Virus record (IMG/VR): IMGVR_UViG_3300023180_000204
Span: 1 to 33,650 of that record
Source: a virus
Length of the DNA: 33,650 nt
Strand: one strand, 5' to 3'
The position numbers and the translations under genes were made by a program. Shown here piece after piece: positions 26,714 through 33,304 of the stretch; positions within the stretch are counted from its first letter, which is position 1; every line of letters begins with the position of its first letter. The notes under the pieces are model-generated. The model worked only from the letters and a program-made list of their open reading frames with translations. It ran no database searches and was not told the DNA's origin.

Positions 26714-26947
26714 ATGTACATCGAACCAATTTATCTATTGACTGCTGGATTATGTTTTTGTGCTTTTATGATGGGTCGCAGCTGGAGTCAGTGGACATCG
26801 TCACAGGCAATTGTGGCTACAATAGAACATCTTATCGATGAAGGTTATTTACGTGCATATGTGAATGCCGACGGTGAAACTGAACTGATTAGAATTCGTG
26901 ATGAAAGGAACTCAAATGGCTGGAGCCGTACGTCGTCAGACGAATAA
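26714..26947 (+). CDS. Small membrane protein, unknown function
   Basis: 77 aa. MYIEPIYLLTAGLCFCAFMM is one N-terminal hydrophobic helix. The rest is soluble, with AIVATIEHLIDEGYLRAYV and DGETELIRIRDE, a pattern of a helix and two strands. I recall similar anchored proteins in marine T4-like phages. It overlaps the next gene by 32 nt. Confidence 0.6.
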   Translation: MYIEPIYLLTAGLCFCAFMMGRSWSQWTSSQAIVATIEHLIDEGYLRAYVNADGETELIRIRDERNSNGWSRTSSDE

Positions 26948-28052
26948 GCGTCGCAAGAAAAAGGTACCACTACCACGCAAACCAAGAACCGGTATTGGTG
27001 CAGCACCTGATCATGATTGGGAAGCCTTTGCATCCTATTTCCGTATGGATATGGATCGTAAGGATCTTGCTGGTGTACTTCGGAACTACATCCGAACTGA
27101 ATTCAAAGGTGAAGAGCAGAAACTGCTACTGTCAGCTCCAGACTTTATGTACACCACGAAGTATGGTCCAGCAGCATCTATTGCTTGGGCTGGTTTAAAT
27201 AAAGAGTTCCCATCTAAGTGGAACCACAAACGTTGCGTCGATCGATACATCGAAGATGTTCGTGAGTGGGCTATGCGTAAGCTATCAGAGCGAGATGATA
27301 GTGATGCAAAGGTGGTCAAGAAACCTACTGTGTCACCTATGGAACGAGTCAAGCACATCACTGGTGAATTCATTGCTGGTATAGAAGAAGTAGTTGATGA
27401 CTGGGAGAATGCTGGTGAGTTCAATATATACAAAGAGATGCAGTTAGCAGATCTTAACATGTTTTCTGCTCGTGCGGTCTTCGATTATTATGAACCACAA
27501 CTAAAAGAGATCCAGGAACTAGTCAATGATAAGACAGAGGATCTTGTTGAAGCCTATAGTCATATGTCAGTACCAAAACGTAAGAAGTACCTTGCGTTCC
27601 TGACTACACTCACTGACGATGCTAAGAAGTACGTGCTCAGCAAGAAAGCCACACGTAAGGTATCAGTCAAGCGACCAAAGACTGCTGATCGTCAGGTAGC
27701 AAAGGTAAGCTATCTCAAAGAGTCACCAGAGTTCAAGCTTACATCAATCAACCCTATTCAATTGGTTGGTGCTCGAAGATTGTATACGTTCCACGTCAAA
27801 GAACGTATTATCACAGAGTTTGTTACACAAGCTGCAGCAGGCTTTGAGATCTCTGGTACTACTATCAAGAACTTCGATACTGTGAACTCTCGATCGATTA
27901 GGTTACGTAAACCAGAAGAGATGCTTAATGTGTTTCTGATTAAGACCCCGAAACAAATCGATAAGTATTGGAGTGAATTGACGACCAAGACTGTAAAGCC
28001 TACTGGTCGAATAAACAAAGATATGATTTTGTTAAGGGTTATGGATCAATGA
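26916..28052 (+). CDS. Conserved phage protein of 378 aa, unknown function
   Basis: The start is ATG 26916 (AAAGGAA 5-6 nt upstream); ATG 26901 and GTG 26898 lack a site. The N-terminus is strongly basic (RRQTNKRRKKKVPLPRKPR), suggesting nucleic-acid binding. The middle is helical (AVFDYYEPQLKEIQELVNDK) and the last third is Lys/Arg-rich with strands (RRLYTFHVKERIITEFVTQA). It lies just before gp33 and gp32, where T4-type phages carry replication and late-transcription genes, so a DNA-related role is possible. Not recognised further. ATGA overlap with the next gene. Confidence 0.68.
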   Translation: MAGAVRRQTNKRRKKKVPLPRKPRTGIGAAPDHDWEAFASYFRMDMDRKDLAGVLRNYIRTEFKGEEQKLLLSAPDFMYTTKYGPAASIAWAGLNKEFPSKWNHKRCVDRYIEDVREWAMRKLSERDDSDAKVVKKPTVSPMERVKHITGEFIAGIEEVVDDWENAGEFNIYKEMQLADLNMFSARAVFDYYEPQLKEIQELVNDKTEDLVEAYSHMSVPKRKKYLAFLTTLTDDAKKYVLSKKATRKVSVKRPKTADRQVAKVSYLKESPEFKLTSINPIQLVGARRLYTFHVKERIITEFVTQAAAGFEISGTTIKNFDTVNSRSIRLRKPEEMLNVFLIKTPKQIDKYWSELTTKTVKPTGRINKDMILLRVMDQ

Positions 28053-28225
28053 AAGTAACAATGATTGATCCACCGAGTGGATGGAAATATGGATTTCCAA
28101 AAGTCCTACCAGATAATGTTGAAGATACTGTTAAGTGGTTAGTCGAACAAGGTTATCCACAACAAGAAATTGATAACTGTGGTAAACACTTTCACTGCAG
28201 ATATTGGGAGTCAGATGATGAGTGA
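28049..28225 (+). CDS. Small conserved protein, unknown function
   Basis: 58 aa beginning in an ATGA overlap and ending 11 nt inside gp33. The sequence MKVTMIDPPSGWKYGFPK, WLVEQGYPQQEID and CGKHFHCRYWE is a pattern I recall in T4-like cyanophages. The C-terminal C-x3-H-x-H-C (CGKHFHC) could bind a metal, but this is a guess. Confidence 0.65.
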   Translation: MKVTMIDPPSGWKYGFPKVLPDNVEDTVKWLVEQGYPQQEIDNCGKHFHCRYWESDDE

Positions 28226-28442
28226 TTTTTTAAACAGAGCAGAGTTTACTAAGTTAGTTGAGAAAGCAGTACGTGATTTCAACATGACTTATATGGACGC
28301 AATGATTGATATTTGTGATAAGAATAATATCGATCCAGAAGATGTAAAGAAATTCGTTGGTGCTCAACTACAATCGAAACTTGAAGTTGAGGCAATGGAA
28401 CTAAATCTCTTACCGAAAAAAGCAATGTTAGATTTCGGTTAG
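28215..28442 (+). CDS. 33: gp33-like late-transcription coactivator
   Basis: 75 aa from ATG 28215 (GGGAG upstream); a second ATG follows at 28218. FLNRAEFTKLVEKAVRDFNM, TYMDAMIDICDKNNIDPEDV and EVEAMELNLLPKKAMLDFG match the short gp33 of T4-like cyanophages. T4 gp33 joins RNA polymerase with the gp55 sigma and the sliding clamp for late transcription. The last residues should hold the clamp-binding motif (LDFG). It is followed by the gp32 promoter, and by late boxes across the window that it would serve. It is shorter than T4 gp33 (112 aa). Confidence 0.85.
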   Translation: MMSDFLNRAEFTKLVEKAVRDFNMTYMDAMIDICDKNNIDPEDVKKFVGAQLQSKLEVEAMELNLLPKKAMLDFG

Positions 28443-28511: not shown

Positions 28512-29429
28512 ATGTCATTCGCAGCACTAAAACAAAACTCCACATCAATCGACAAACTGGTTAACGCAGCACAGTCTGTTGGTGGTGGTGAAAAGAACTC
28601 CTACAAAGATGAACGTATGTGGAAACCTACCGTCGATAAGATGGGTAATGGTTATGCCGTTATTCGATTATTGCCGGCAGCAGAAGGTCAGGATCTTCCA
28701 TGGGTTCGTTACTGGGATCATGGGTTCAAAGGTCCAACTGGTAAATGGTACATCGAACGTTCTCTTACGTCGATTGGTCAAGATGATCCAGTTGGTGAAC
28801 TGAACTCTAAACTCTGGAATTCAGGTATTGATGCAGATAAGGAAACAGCACGTGTACAAAAACGTCGACTTCATTATGTATCAAACGTACTAGTAGTTTC
28901 AGATCCAGCCAATCCTGAAAATGAAGGTAAAGTCTTCATGTATCAGTATGGTAAAAAGATCTTCGACAAGATCATGGATGCTATGCAACCACAATATGCA
29001 GATGAAACGCCTATGAATCCATTCGATTTCTGGGCAGGTGCAAGCTTCAAGATTAAGATTCGTAAGGTAGATGGTTGGGTAAACTACGATAAGTCGGAGT
29101 TTGATTCCCCAACGGCACTATCTCAGGATGATACGTATCTTGAAGGTGTTTACAATTCGATGCATGATCTTGCAGATGAGTTCACTAACCCATCCAAGTA
29201 CAAGTCTTATGCAGAACTAAAAACAAAGCTTGAGAACGTACTTGGTACCGTATCACCAATGAGTGTACGTGATGAAATCTCACTTGGTAATGAAGCACCA
29301 GCTCCAGCACCACGTGAAATGCCAGCTCAGAGTATTACAGAGCTTGATGATAACATCCCAGACTTCGATGCAAAGAAGGATGACGATGATACCATGAGTT
29401 ACTTTGCTAAGTTGGCAAATGAAGGATAA
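28512..29429 (+). CDS. 32: gp32-like single-stranded DNA-binding protein, zinc ligands lost
   Basis: 305 aa, close to T4 gp32 (301 aa). The N-terminal basic cooperativity region (MSFAALKQNSTSIDKLVNAA), the core (WVRYWDHGFKGPTGKWYIER, LNSKLWNSG, RRLHYVSNVLVVSDP) and the acidic tail (ITELDDNIPDFDAKKDDDD) are the three domains of gp32. It coats single-stranded DNA in replication, repair and recombination and binds other replication proteins through the tail. There is no cysteine in the whole protein, so the H-C-C-C zinc site of T4 gp32 is absent; only H70 remains. It follows gp33, as in T4. Confidence 0.93.
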   Translation: MSFAALKQNSTSIDKLVNAAQSVGGGEKNSYKDERMWKPTVDKMGNGYAVIRLLPAAEGQDLPWVRYWDHGFKGPTGKWYIERSLTSIGQDDPVGELNSKLWNSGIDADKETARVQKRRLHYVSNVLVVSDPANPENEGKVFMYQYGKKIFDKIMDAMQPQYADETPMNPFDFWAGASFKIKIRKVDGWVNYDKSEFDSPTALSQDDTYLEGVYNSMHDLADEFTNPSKYKSYAELKTKLENVLGTVSPMSVRDEISLGNEAPAPAPREMPAQSITELDDNIPDFDAKKDDDDTMSYFAKLANEG

Positions 29430-29585: not shown

Positions 29586-29612
29586 GGGAGACTTCGGTCT
29601 CCCTTTTCTTTT
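29586..29612 (+). terminator. Strong rho-independent terminator with UUCG loop
   Basis: Perfect 7-bp stem GGGAGAC/GTCTCCC (29586-29592, 29597-29603), UUCG tetraloop and TTTTCTTTT. It ends the gp32 transcript just before the convergent tape-measure gene, whose stop lies at the end of the T-tract. Confidence 0.9.
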
Positions 29613-31656
29613 ACAGTGGTGATGCATATCCCGCAGGATTATATCTGGAAATTCCGCCGTTTAACCCATCAATAGCTGGGGTAGATTTATCGATAACTAG
29701 TCCCATATTCTGATTGGTAACAACATTTGAATTCTGTGAAGCGTCAATGTTAACAGGTGCGCCAGAGCCAGTACCATTAATTGATCCAGCAGCTAATTCA
29801 TTAATTTCTGCCATTGCTTCTGCCGTTGGGATCATAGTTTTATTCATACCTCTGGATTGAAGATATCTTCCACCTGCCTGCATTAGAGTTGTTTGATATT
29901 GTGCTATTTGTGCAGGTGCAAGATTGTTCCCCATCGAAGGTGCAATCTTTGACATGTATCTTCGTTTCGCGGCATTAATGGCTTCGTCGTATTCAGTTTT
30001 TATATTCCCATAATATTGTTTTAAAAACATACCAAACTCGCTATCATTCATATTCAACAAGCTTAAGAATTGTGCGAGAGATTCTTGACCCGCACTATCT
30101 ATTTCAAGTATCCCAGTCTCTGGATTCATTTTACCGAAGACTGCCATAAGACCGATCTCAAACTGTTCAGGGTATTTAGTGGCGTTTTCACGTAGTGCTT
30201 TCCTCAAATCCATCATCTGTTTTAATGCTGATCCGCCAGAACCTCTCAGATATCCTAAGAATTTCATGATCATATTAGCTTCTTCACCACCTTGATGCTC
30301 GGCCGTGAATAGAACAGCACCAGAAGGGGTATTTATTCTGCCACCAGTTTCAGACGGGGTTAAAATAATACTACCAGCTATACCAACAGTACCACCTAAG
30401 AATCTTGCAAGACCTGTTAATCGAGCAGCTGTACCTGTAGCACCCACCGATCGCGATACTGCTGCACCACCTCTGGCAGCTTCTTCAGCTAGCCCAACTG
30501 GGTCCATGAAGTTCATACCCCGCATGAATTTAGAAAACACACTTGTTTTTGGAGCGGTAACATCAGCCATTTTTACATCAGGTTGTACACCAAGTCTTTT
30601 TGCTTGCTTTAGATTCCTCATATCCTCTGGAGAAGCTTCACCTAAAATTCTATCTGGTACACCAACAAAAGTTAGCTTCCCACCGTTAGGTGTTTGCATC
30701 TCTAGGATCATTCTACCACTACCGTCAAGAGCAGGTCCTTTGACTTCAACAATTGAAATATTACCATTACCAGCTCTATAAATAAGTTTTTGACCTTTAG
30801 TAAAGCCACCATGTAATTCTTTTTGAAATTGCATAGCTGAAGCCATTCTTCTGAATTTCCCAACCTCGGCTTGACCAGCGGCAGCGGCTCTTTCTGCTTC
30901 TTGTAATCTAAGCTCTTTACTCACATTCATAATTTTTTGTCTTTGGGCAAATCTGCTTGATTCAGCTTTTGAGAGATCTGATCGTAACGCTTTTAGTGTG
31001 TCGGCCTGGTTTGCTGCTTTCATTTGTTCTGTTACTAAATCCGTACGTGCGGCTTTAACAGTATCTAATTGTGATTGAAGGGTACTGATTCTTCCTTCAA
31101 GTTGTTTAATACGATCACCGTTTACAGCACGTTCAGATTTCAGTTCTTTCTGAACAGATCTTATTTCACTTTGTAATCTTTTTGTTTCTGTATCAAAGGC
31201 CTTCTTTTGGTCTTGTAAACTTTTAGCGTCAGTTTTTGCTTGTTTTTCAAGATCTTTTATTCTATTCTTTAGATCTTTATTATCACTCCGTAAGTTTGAA
31301 GTATCTTTAGTCAAAGCATCAAGAACCCGTTTGGTTATACGGATTGCTCCAATACCTAGCGCGGCAAGAACACTACCTACTACGCCTCCTATAATTTTCT
31401 CTAACAAATTACCGCCAGTAGCACCAGCTATAGCAGCACCAGCTGCACCACCTGCTAATATTCCTAAGCCGCCAATTTTACTTCTACGCTCTCTTCTATC
31501 CTCAAGGTCATCAAGTCTCTTTCTTTCATTCACACCCAAGAATTTTTGGATGCCTCTATTAATATCATTTAAAGACTTTGACTGATCCTCAAGTTCACTA
31601 ATTATATTGTCATCATTCTTTTTGATCAGTTCTGATACGGATTTGAGTGTAGTCAT
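29611..31656 (-). CDS. Tape-measure-like tail protein (gp29-type)
   Basis: 681 aa. The N-terminal region has hydrophobic Gly/Ala stretches (GGLGILAGGAAGAAIAGATG, VVGSVLAALGIGAI). A charged coiled coil over about residues 115-245 follows (LKNRIKDLEKQAKTD), then a beta-rich middle and a helical C-terminus. Size, coil, hydrophobic segments and position directly after the frameshift region match tail length rulers such as T4 gp29 (590 aa), which fix tube length inside the tail. It lies 11 nt after the frameshift ORF stop, with AGAGAAC before its ATG. Tape measures vary strongly, so identity is by context. Confidence 0.66.
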   Translation of the reverse strand: MTTLKSVSELIKKNDDNIISELEDQSKSLNDINRGIQKFLGVNERKRLDDLEDRRERRSKIGGLGILAGGAAGAAIAGATGGNLLEKIIGGVVGSVLAALGIGAIRITKRVLDALTKDTSNLRSDNKDLKNRIKDLEKQAKTDAKSLQDQKKAFDTETKRLQSEIRSVQKELKSERAVNGDRIKQLEGRISTLQSQLDTVKAARTDLVTEQMKAANQADTLKALRSDLSKAESSRFAQRQKIMNVSKELRLQEAERAAAAGQAEVGKFRRMASAMQFQKELHGGFTKGQKLIYRAGNGNISIVEVKGPALDGSGRMILEMQTPNGGKLTFVGVPDRILGEASPEDMRNLKQAKRLGVQPDVKMADVTAPKTSVFSKFMRGMNFMDPVGLAEEAARGGAAVSRSVGATGTAARLTGLARFLGGTVGIAGSIILTPSETGGRINTPSGAVLFTAEHQGGEEANMIMKFLGYLRGSGGSALKQMMDLRKALRENATKYPEQFEIGLMAVFGKMNPETGILEIDSAGQESLAQFLSLLNMNDSEFGMFLKQYYGNIKTEYDEAINAAKRRYMSKIAPSMGNNLAPAQIAQYQTTLMQAGGRYLQSRGMNKTMIPTAEAMAEINELAAGSINGTGSGAPVNIDASQNSNVVTNQNMGLVIDKSTPAIDGLNGGISRYNPAGYASPL

Positions 31657-31667
31657 TTATGTTCTCT

Positions 31668-31847
31668 TTACATATTCTGTTTCTGTTGTTCTAACGTTTT
31701 CAAATGATTCATCAATAAGGTAACGTAGACTTCCCTTTCCCAAGGCATCATATTATAAAGATCAGTTAATGAATAATTATGGTGTTCCATTAATAAAAAA
31801 TTAACCTCATAATGGTTTACAAGTGTCTCATGGGAAAGGGCTACTAA
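31668..31847 (-). CDS. Frameshift-encoded C-terminal extension of gp26-like protein (gp51/tail-chaperone-like)
   Basis: 59 in-frame codons then TAA, in the -1 frame relative to the gp26-like gene and open across its stop. The product (LVALSHETLVNHYEVNFLLM, EHHNYSLTDLYNMMPWEREV, then YVTLLMNHLKTLE) is helical. It resembles the small tail-assembly proteins placed before tape measures, with a PWER motif I recall in T4-like phages. An ATG at 31790 could give a 40-aa product alone, but its ribosome site is poor (GAGG too far), and coding-like residues extend upstream of it. Fusion would be 298 aa. It probably acts with gp26 on the tape measure during tail assembly. Confidence 0.72.
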   Translation of the reverse strand, partial: LVALSHETLVNHYEVNFLLMEHHNYSLTDLYNMMPWEREVYVTLLMNHLKTLEQQKQNM

Positions 31848-32563
31848 AAAAAATCAGCGATTCCTCTTAGCTCCATTTTATTTTCTTTTTTACACGATTC
31901 ACATTCCCATGTAACATCAAGTTTTACTTCTGGTGTATTCAAAGCAAATTCTTTTAACAAATTAAACTGCTCTGTAGTCATATTATTAACAAAATCCACT
32001 AATTCTTCAAATGGTTCTGCTGAAACATCAATTCTTTCTTCTTCCGTAAGAACTGCTTTGATTGACATCAAAGTTGTTAAATAAACCACTTCAGCATCTG
32101 TTTTCGTATCTTTTACCTTGTTATTTTTTATAATATTATCGTATGTAATATAACCCATTTCAATTGAAACATCATCATTAATTTTTATAATATTATCTTT
32201 TTGTTCCCCCATATCCATTTCAGCTTGGTCAATATGAATATCAACTTCTGTTTGATGGAAACATTCATCATGACTACAGGCTAAAGCAAGCGTAGATTTT
32301 TCTCCTACTGATTTTGCCCGAATATTACAAAAAAGATATTCTACGTCAAAGACTGTTAAATCCTTTCCATCTATTTCATCTTCCAAACATGACCTAACTA
32401 AATCTAAAATAGATTGATTGATTAGATCAGGATCATTTTGTTCAGAGGCAACCAGAAGAATTTTTTCTTCTTTTACCAAATATGGTCTAAACCTTGTTTG
32501 TATCCCACTAGACGGGATAGTAATTGGATACATAGACACTTCACTTAATTTTGGGAATCCCAT
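31844..32563 (-). CDS. 26: gp26-like baseplate hub / tail-chaperone protein
   Basis: 239 aa in the zero frame. ITIPSSGIQTRFRPYLVKEE, DLINQSILDLVRSCLED and DVEYLFCNIRAKSVGEK form the conserved N-terminal half of the T4 gp26 family. Cysteine pairs (ACSHDEC, WECESCKKEN) suggest a zinc-binding C-terminal domain. T4 gp26 (208 aa) is needed for baseplate hub formation; its relatives act with gp51 and the tape measure. The last two codons and the stop form a slippery heptamer, so part of the product is likely extended to 298 aa. It starts 25 nt after the gp48/gp54-like gene stop. Confidence 0.83.
   Translation of the reverse strand: MGFPKLSEVSMYPITIPSSGIQTRFRPYLVKEEKILLVASEQNDPDLINQSILDLVRSCLEDEIDGKDLTVFDVEYLFCNIRAKSVGEKSTLALACSHDECFHQTEVDIHIDQAEMDMGEQKDNIIKINDDVSIEMGYITYDNIIKNNKVKDTKTDAEVVYLTTLMSIKAVLTEEERIDVSAEPFEELVDFVNNMTTEQFNLLKEFALNTPEVKLDVTWECESCKKENKMELRGIADFF
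31847..31853 (-). promoter_or_regulatory. Slippery heptamer T TTT TTT at the gp26 stop
   Basis: On the minus strand the gp26-like frame ends GAT TTT TTT TAG. The T-run (31853-31846) gives heptamer T TTT TTT, on which a -1 shift continues into the 59-codon frame. Six nt on, TGGGAAAGGG on the plus strand (31831-31840) can pair in the mRNA with a complement at 31733-31742. Confidence 0.78.
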
Positions 32564-32587: not shown

Positions 32588-33304
32588 TTATATAATTCTA
32601 CCTAAAAACCCACCAACTTGACTTGTTACAAAATCACCAAGGGCAGATCCTTCTTGTTTTCCAGTATTTCGCCAATCACGATACGATAACTGTATATTGA
32701 GTTGTAAAATACTATCTTGTTGATCATCACCTAATTCAATAGCACTCATTGTAGTAGGAAATGCCTCTTGTAATTCGCATTCGTAAATAATATCGCCTCC
32801 ACTAATAAAATCTAAATCAATTTCACCTTGCGCTAAATTAATTGGTCCAAGAGAAGGTAATCTTCCCTGAATTTCTGACGGTATTTTGAATCCTAAATCT
32901 ATATTAGCTAACGGAAATCCTACACCTTTTTTTAATTGTGCGATTTGAACAGTCTGACCATACCCACCTTGACCCTTTAGATAACCAGGTTCTAATGTAT
33001 TAGGATCAAGACAAAGTGACTGCCAATTCTCAAAATATCTCCTTACACCATAATCATTAAGTAAAAGGAATGATAGATTTACATCATCAAAAGCATGACC
33101 GTATGCAACCTTTTGGAATGTGTTACCAATACGTCTCTCAACTGTCATGATCTGTCTTCCAGGAACATTTACTGCTCTGCATAACAAATTAATTTCCCGT
33201 GAACTAATATTGTTAATTGATGGTAATGTAACCTTATAAATGTTACCTCTTGCAACACCTCTTTTAGAACTAATTGTTGATTTTAGCTGATCTATATTAC
33301 TCAT
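32588..33304 (-). CDS. Baseplate tail-tube protein, gp48/gp54-like
   Basis: 238 aa. NLLCRAVNVPGRQIMTVERR, VAYGHAFDDVNLSFLLLNDY, GVRRYFENWQ, CELQEAFPTTMSAIEL and LNIQLSYRDWRN form the tail-tube-like domain shared by T4 gp19, gp48 and gp54. T4 gp48 and gp54 form the ring joining baseplate and tail tube and start tube polymerisation. The CDS is shorter than T4 gp48 (364 aa) and gp54 (320 aa), so the exact counterpart is uncertain. It overlaps the upstream gene by ATGA and lies next to gp26 and the tape measure, as expected for tail-centre genes. Confidence 0.78.
   Translation of the reverse strand: MSNIDQLKSTISSKRGVARGNIYKVTLPSINNISSREINLLCRAVNVPGRQIMTVERRIGNTFQKVAYGHAFDDVNLSFLLLNDYGVRRYFENWQSLCLDPNTLEPGYLKGQGGYGQTVQIAQLKKGVGFPLANIDLGFKIPSEIQGRLPSLGPINLAQGEIDLDFISGGDIIYECELQEAFPTTMSAIELGDDQQDSILQLNIQLSYRDWRNTGKQEGSALGDFVTSQVGGFLGRII

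Follow-up and report, generated by a model that had tools for sequence, protein, structure and literature searches.

Probable -1 programmed frameshifting between gp26-like and gp51-like coding regions in a T4-like marine myophage

In the 33,650-base IMG/VR virus record IMGVR_UViG_3300023180_000204, analysed over its whole length (the window), the gene of a gp26-like protein ends on a run of T residues and a short open frame follows in the -1 register, just ahead of a long ORF. The locus raises the question of whether this short frame encodes a free protein or the C-terminal end of a longer form of the gp26-like one. We consider it very probable that this locus of a T4-like marine myophage undergoes -1 programmed frameshifting, yielding a short and a long tail assembly chaperone (TAC); this reading is built on frames, homologies, slip-site conservation, absence of start codons and locus order, which are established in the sequence itself. 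If so, gp26 and gp51, which have long been viewed as two distinct T4 proteins of the baseplate hub whose function was unclear, would be the short and long forms of one TAC.

T4 genes 26 and 51 are reportedly named in the abstract of Vladimirov, Gautam and Davidson. In the passages of PMC10885494 and PMC12846349 drawn on here, this work (Virology 2022, 566:9-15) is credited for the TAC genes of T4-like phages; the same passages describe poly-T -1 frameshift signals in TAC-N genes of T4-like phages (PMC12846349), and some T4-like phages that, in place of frameshifting, have two genes, one short and one a longer fusion (PMC10885494). T4 was still listed as the exception in 2016 (PMC5009743). Going by these passages, the idea of a frameshifted TAC is already published for T4-like phages and the record is a further, uncharacterised marine example; it fits the frameshift arrangement of TAC-N and TAC-NC, T4 fits the two-gene arrangement, and the mechanism is no different. 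What the present analysis may add is a broad range of lineages, the observation that Ackermannviridae have lost the heptamer, and an SD-like element and a downstream stem as candidate stimulators. In this independent and broad data set, most sampled T4-like lineages appear to use a -1 frameshift, and T4 and its near relatives two genes.

Two reading frames at a run of T residues

On the minus strand, the gene order runs from the end of a gp2-like DNA end protector through the tail tube gene (32588..33304; phrog_45 'tail tube', E 1.5e-33) and the gp26-like gene (31844..32563) to the -1-frame extension (31668..31847) and a 681-codon ORF (29611..31656). The gp26-like ORF, which would encode the short TAC-N (239 aa, C-terminus ...RGIADFF*), terminates GCT GAT TTT TTT TAG. 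Its T8 run (31853..31846) holds the slippery heptamer T_TTT_TTT (31853..31847), with the 0-frame stop TAG (31846..31844) directly after it. Past a -1 slip the frame reads TTA GTA GCC CTT TCC CAT... from 31847 to 31671, that is 59 codons, up to a stop at 31670..31668. This extension (TAC-C, the gp51-like C-terminal domain) has the peptide LVALSHETLVNHYEVNF...PWEREVY...KQNM, and 11 nt separate its stop from the ATG of the next ORF (31656). The predicted fusion, TAC-NC, is 239 + 59 = 298 aa long. Upstream, the preceding -1-frame stop, TGA, directly abuts the T run, and no ATG, GTG or TTG occurs in the -1 frame of the record from this stop until the ATG at 31790; translation from that codon would lack the first third of the extension, a conserved stretch.

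An open -1 frame of at least 59 codons is common after ORFs in the record (14/55 ORF ends) and is thus not counted as evidence. Among ends of ORFs of at least 100 aa in the record, only that of the gp26-like ORF carries an in-phase T_TTT_TT heptamer in its last codons. The same T8 run and the same frames are present in two further IMG/VR contigs (L001 and L002), so that an assembly error is unlikely.

Two overlapping frames lie between the tail tube gene and the ORF at the tape-measure position, as in the G/GT-type arrangement, which completes the order tube, TAC, tape-measure-position ORF. The 681-aa ORF itself has helical and coiled-coil matches only, and its identity is taken from its position and length. 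Among relatives, a tube homologue is present in 146 loci, and an ORF follows the extension, mostly close behind, in nearly all representatives (ORFs were counted from 200 aa, or from 80 aa if cut by a contig end). The first-pass annotation had proposed a slip on the T run that bypasses the stop, a 59-codon extension lacking a well-placed start and ending 11 nt before the next ATG, a 298-aa fusion, and a position ahead of a tape-measure-type ORF; every coordinate and length proved right, and its reading of the locus as a lambda G/GT-like chaperone layout is supported by the frames, the conservation and the locus order.

We infer that most ribosomes would terminate at TAG and release the short gp26-like TAC-N, and that a minority would slip by -1 with two tRNA-Phe on T_TTT_TTT, bypass the stop and add 59 residues to give TAC-NC, which matches gp51 in its C-terminal part. 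If the model of lambda gpG/gpGT holds here, the short form may coat the tape-measure protein, the long form may recruit tail-tube subunits and so link the tape measure to the tube, and both would leave before the tail is completed. The lambda slip site is G_GGA_AAG, that of the record T_TTT_TTT. The likeness drawn here is one of layout: in lambda, too, a short chaperone and its -1-frameshifted long form are encoded after the major tail protein and ahead of the tape measure (PMC5009743). In the TAC loci of Vandenendeviridae and Andersonviridae, a TAC-N is likewise followed by a -1 extension ahead of the tape measure, with a slip site that is rich in T; the motif there is GTTTTT, and this comparison too is drawn from layout (PMC12846349).

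Elsewhere in the window, a 384-aa ORF on the plus strand (26898-28052) matches phrog_11903 (function unknown, E 1e-66) and adjoins genes for a gp33-like late transcription regulator (28170-28442) and a gp32-like single-strand DNA-binding protein (28512-29429).

Identity of the two parts and the T4 arrangement

The gp26-like protein matches PF12322 over residues 12-239 (E 1.4e-46, 159 bits for a gathering score of 24.5) and phrog_150 'baseplate hub' over profile positions 7-232 of 282 (E 1.8e-50), and on these matches it is a full-length relative of T4 gp26. The extension matches phrog_634 'baseplate hub assembly catalyst', the gp51 family (E 1.4e-22), as well as the last 46 columns of phrog_150 (positions 236-281, E 7.7e-6). 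Since both halves match different columns of phrog_150, the public family already includes one-protein members. Searched with tblastn, the extension has matches in 555 phage records, mostly of cyanophages, the others being Vibrio, Aeromonas, Sinorhizobium, Pseudomonas, Pelagibacter and Methylophilales phages; a laxer cut-off adds E. coli T4-like phages, in which the C-terminus of gp51 is matched. It is 62% identical to its counterpart in cyanophage P-RSM6. By these comparisons, the extension is a homologue of the C-terminal part of T4 gp51 and is under constraint at the protein level, which supports the earlier proposal of a gp26/gp51 frameshift pair.

Genes 26 and 51 lie side by side in T4, 44RR and PspYZU05 and are transcribed divergently. 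T4 gp51 matches PF12322 with its residues 1-201 (E 3.9e-52) and spans columns 13 to 280 of phrog_150, i.e. the gp26 domain and the extension; T4 gp26 ends at column 235. As the library profiles PF12322 and phrog_150 possibly include T4 proteins, profiles built solely from 80 frameshift-type loci, without T4-type sequences, provide a cleaner test. With the gp26 profile of this kind, T4 gp26 is found at E 1.7e-13 and several gp51 N-terminal parts weakly (best 4.6e-5); with the extension profile, the C-termini of gp51 are found at E 1.2e-9 to about 1e-3 in most T4-type genomes and at 0.06 in one. Judged by these profiles, T4 gp51 is the long form written in a single frame, and gp26 corresponds to the short form. 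The gp26 product thus resembles the short form and the gp51 product the long one, their genes being separate and divergent in T4, so that no frameshift is needed there. T4 gp51 is required for assembly yet absent from the particle, and gp26 and gp51 are classed as hub-assembly chaperones (PMC3004832), which fits a TAC role.

The AlphaFold2 model of the record's gp26-like protein has a pLDDT of 91.4, and that of the in-frame gp51 of a T4-type phage locus (L099) a pLDDT of 95.5; in the latter, three helices of the extension come after the helix that matches the slip-site end of gp26. In a Foldseek search against the PDB, neither the gp26 model nor the gp51-type model has a significant solved relative, and the gp51-type model has no TAC match. 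The HK97 tail assembly chaperone (PDB 2OB9) is among the highest-probability weak hits of the gp26 model, below significance (probability 0.60-0.63, E 0.49-1.2), and this predicted likeness is suggestive.

In one T4-type locus (L102:2483-3255, IMGVR_UViG_2974754850), the gp51 homologue is split across two frames within the gp26-like domain; either a sequencing error or a genuine frameshift could account for this.

Conservation of the slip site among relatives

In a first scan, the extension was found in the -1 frame right behind gp26 in 80/80 loci, and over all fetched loci in 177/177 where it was detected. Eight further loci have no stop within the contig or an extension below the threshold; three of them (L189, L193 and L195) show the -1 frame by eye, L195 keeping T_TTT_TTC and the two others having CTT TTT and CTT TTC. 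Conservation was then counted in 87 representatives, chosen to share at most 85% identity over 270 nt without gaps, which is a crude filter. An in-phase T_TTT_TTN heptamer is present in 83 of them (44 T_TTT_TTT, 37 T_TTT_TTC and 2 T_TTT_TTG) and absent in four, all Ackermannviridae. The slippery run and the -1 frame are both kept in the lineage of the record.

The conserved element is more regular than the residues it encodes, which vary at the slip site (D, S, N, G or T before; F or L after). A T invariably precedes the TTT codon, although only 67% of the D, N and S codons in other parts of these genes end in T; likewise, the first Phe is encoded by TTT without exception, although TTT makes up 66% of Phe codons elsewhere. 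Under naive independence, these regularities have probabilities near 10^-16 and 10^-18, values that are overstated as the relatives share ancestry. Judged by its evolutionary conservation, the arrangement lies far beyond chance.

Among distant T4-like lineages, the slip site is kept in Straboviridae (KVP40-type, PX29, LPCS28), Kyanoviridae and Pootjesviridae, as well as in pf16, Cr30, BUCT608 and Acidovorax and Desulfovibrio phages. Scans with single queries brought only 2 loci with the Vibrio protein, 1 with the Acidovorax protein and 10 with the T4 protein. In eleven loci (L125, L140, L152, L155, L163-L168 and L197), the 0-frame stop lies 10 codons past the heptamer, so that about 8 codons would be double-coding, for gp26 and for the start of the extension.

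Five Ackermannviridae loci (L185, L186, L187, L189 and L192) keep the -1 extension and have lost T_TTT_TTN. Junctions in this family read ATT TTC ATT TAA, CTT TTT CAA TAA or GTT TTT CGC TAA, with a TAATG overlap in one locus, and these phages may use another slip site or a restart. The ORF that follows their extension is annotated as a gp5-like hub/lysozyme or a lysozyme and not as a tape measure. Synechococcus phage S-PM2 has at the tape-measure position a long ORF (L085:3173-6174) whose N-terminus matches ADP-ribosyltransferases (PF01129, E 9e-6) and whose C-terminus bears a phage tail lysozyme domain (PF18013).

Candidate stimulators and alternative readings

Across relatives, complementarity to the anti-SD sequence peaks about 11-18 nt upstream of the heptamer, with a mean duplex value of -5.1 versus 0.08 elsewhere, and in the record this peak corresponds to the SD-like element AAGAGGA (31862..31868, minus strand), 8 nt upstream of the heptamer, a candidate stimulator. 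Conserved [EKR]-G residues account for much of the peak; the excess over a synonymous-codon null is small (z -0.56, SE 0.12) and differs in sign from that of control [EKR]-G sites (+0.32, SE 0.11). Downstream, the next 150 nt form structures more stable than those of synonymous recodings: the mean z is -2.32 (SE 0.16, n=82), and control segments of gp26 give -0.87 (SE 0.17) in the same folding test. The best stem with a 5' arm starting 3-22 nt past the heptamer is likewise stronger than expected (z 1.75 versus 0.18). A downstream RNA structure is thus likely.

In the record, a candidate stem is formed by a perfect 10-bp long-range pairing of CCCTTTCCCA (31840..31831, LSH codons), which starts 6 nt past the heptamer, with TGGGAAAGGG (31742..31733, PWERE codons). 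Among the 71 representatives that share this register, no other tested position pairs better than LSH/PWER, in part owing to peptide conservation. In an arm-swap test real pairs score 15.4 versus 13.9 (sd 0.34), and one pair of third codon positions in the stem covaries (Fisher P 0.003), both values ignoring shared ancestry. As the stem is partly forced by the conserved peptides and these tests ignore ancestry, downstream structure is graded as likely only, and the exact LSH/PWER stem is a proposal. The same 5' arm has different partners in other lineages. We regard it as an evenly balanced possibility that frameshifting in T4-like phages is stimulated by an upstream SD-like element and a downstream stem 5-8 nt past the slip site, the 3' partner being lineage-specific (PWERE codons in the record's lineage, QRH codons or a nearby hairpin elsewhere), such that the structure is kept and its pieces are exchanged. 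The SD-like element and the downstream stem provide a testable set of stimulators.

Could the extension instead be made as a separate small gp51-like protein, by a restart (translational coupling) after the gp26 stop? Most GenBank records do annotate a free 'baseplate hub assembly catalyst', a TAATG stands at the junction in Vibrio QD01, and an ATG lies near the junction in 13/87 representatives, all outside the record's lineage; in such distant relatives a restart could contribute. However, no ATG, GTG or TTG lies between the preceding -1 stop and the conserved part in 55/87 representatives, the record included, several annotated starts cut into the conserved motif, and a restart leaves the conserved in-phase heptamer unexplained. 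Moreover, T4-type gp51 fuses the extension to a gp26-like domain, which makes the joined protein the functional form there. We consider a separate protein very unlikely, and for the record's lineage an independent gp51 start is rejected, as the -1 frame offers no usable start codon.

The fusion might also arise by normal translation if the polymerase added or deleted a base on the T8 run, which in the record is long enough for some slippage of this kind. However, in 39/87 representatives the heptamer reads T_TTT_TTC or T_TTT_TTG, and the six T's that remain are too few for efficient polymerase slippage; the conserved unit is a codon-phased heptamer and not a run length, and the downstream folding and the SD-like element fit ribosomal slippage instead. 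With the T run interrupted in relatives, transcriptional slippage is rejected as extremely improbable. Finally, homopolymers are error-prone and an in-frame version exists as T4-type gp51, so the T8 run could be a sequencing or assembly error within a single in-frame gene, or the extension could be a decayed remnant. Contigs L001 and L002, however, have the identical sequence, and the frames are related in the same way in 177 loci, often with a C or G interrupting the run, which refutes an error for the family; the protein-level constraint and the identity to P-RSM6 speak against decay. To either we assign a probability close to nil. Ribosomal -1 frameshifting at the heptamer is the reading we retain.

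On this frameshift reading, many cyanophage, pelagiphage and vibriophage records misannotate the extension: they give it an artificial start and call it a free 'baseplate hub assembly catalyst'. At L086:3753-3890, L197:2262-2396 and L198:1555-1698, for example, the annotated start trims the conserved N-terminal motif of the extension, and these free-extension annotations look like annotation errors.
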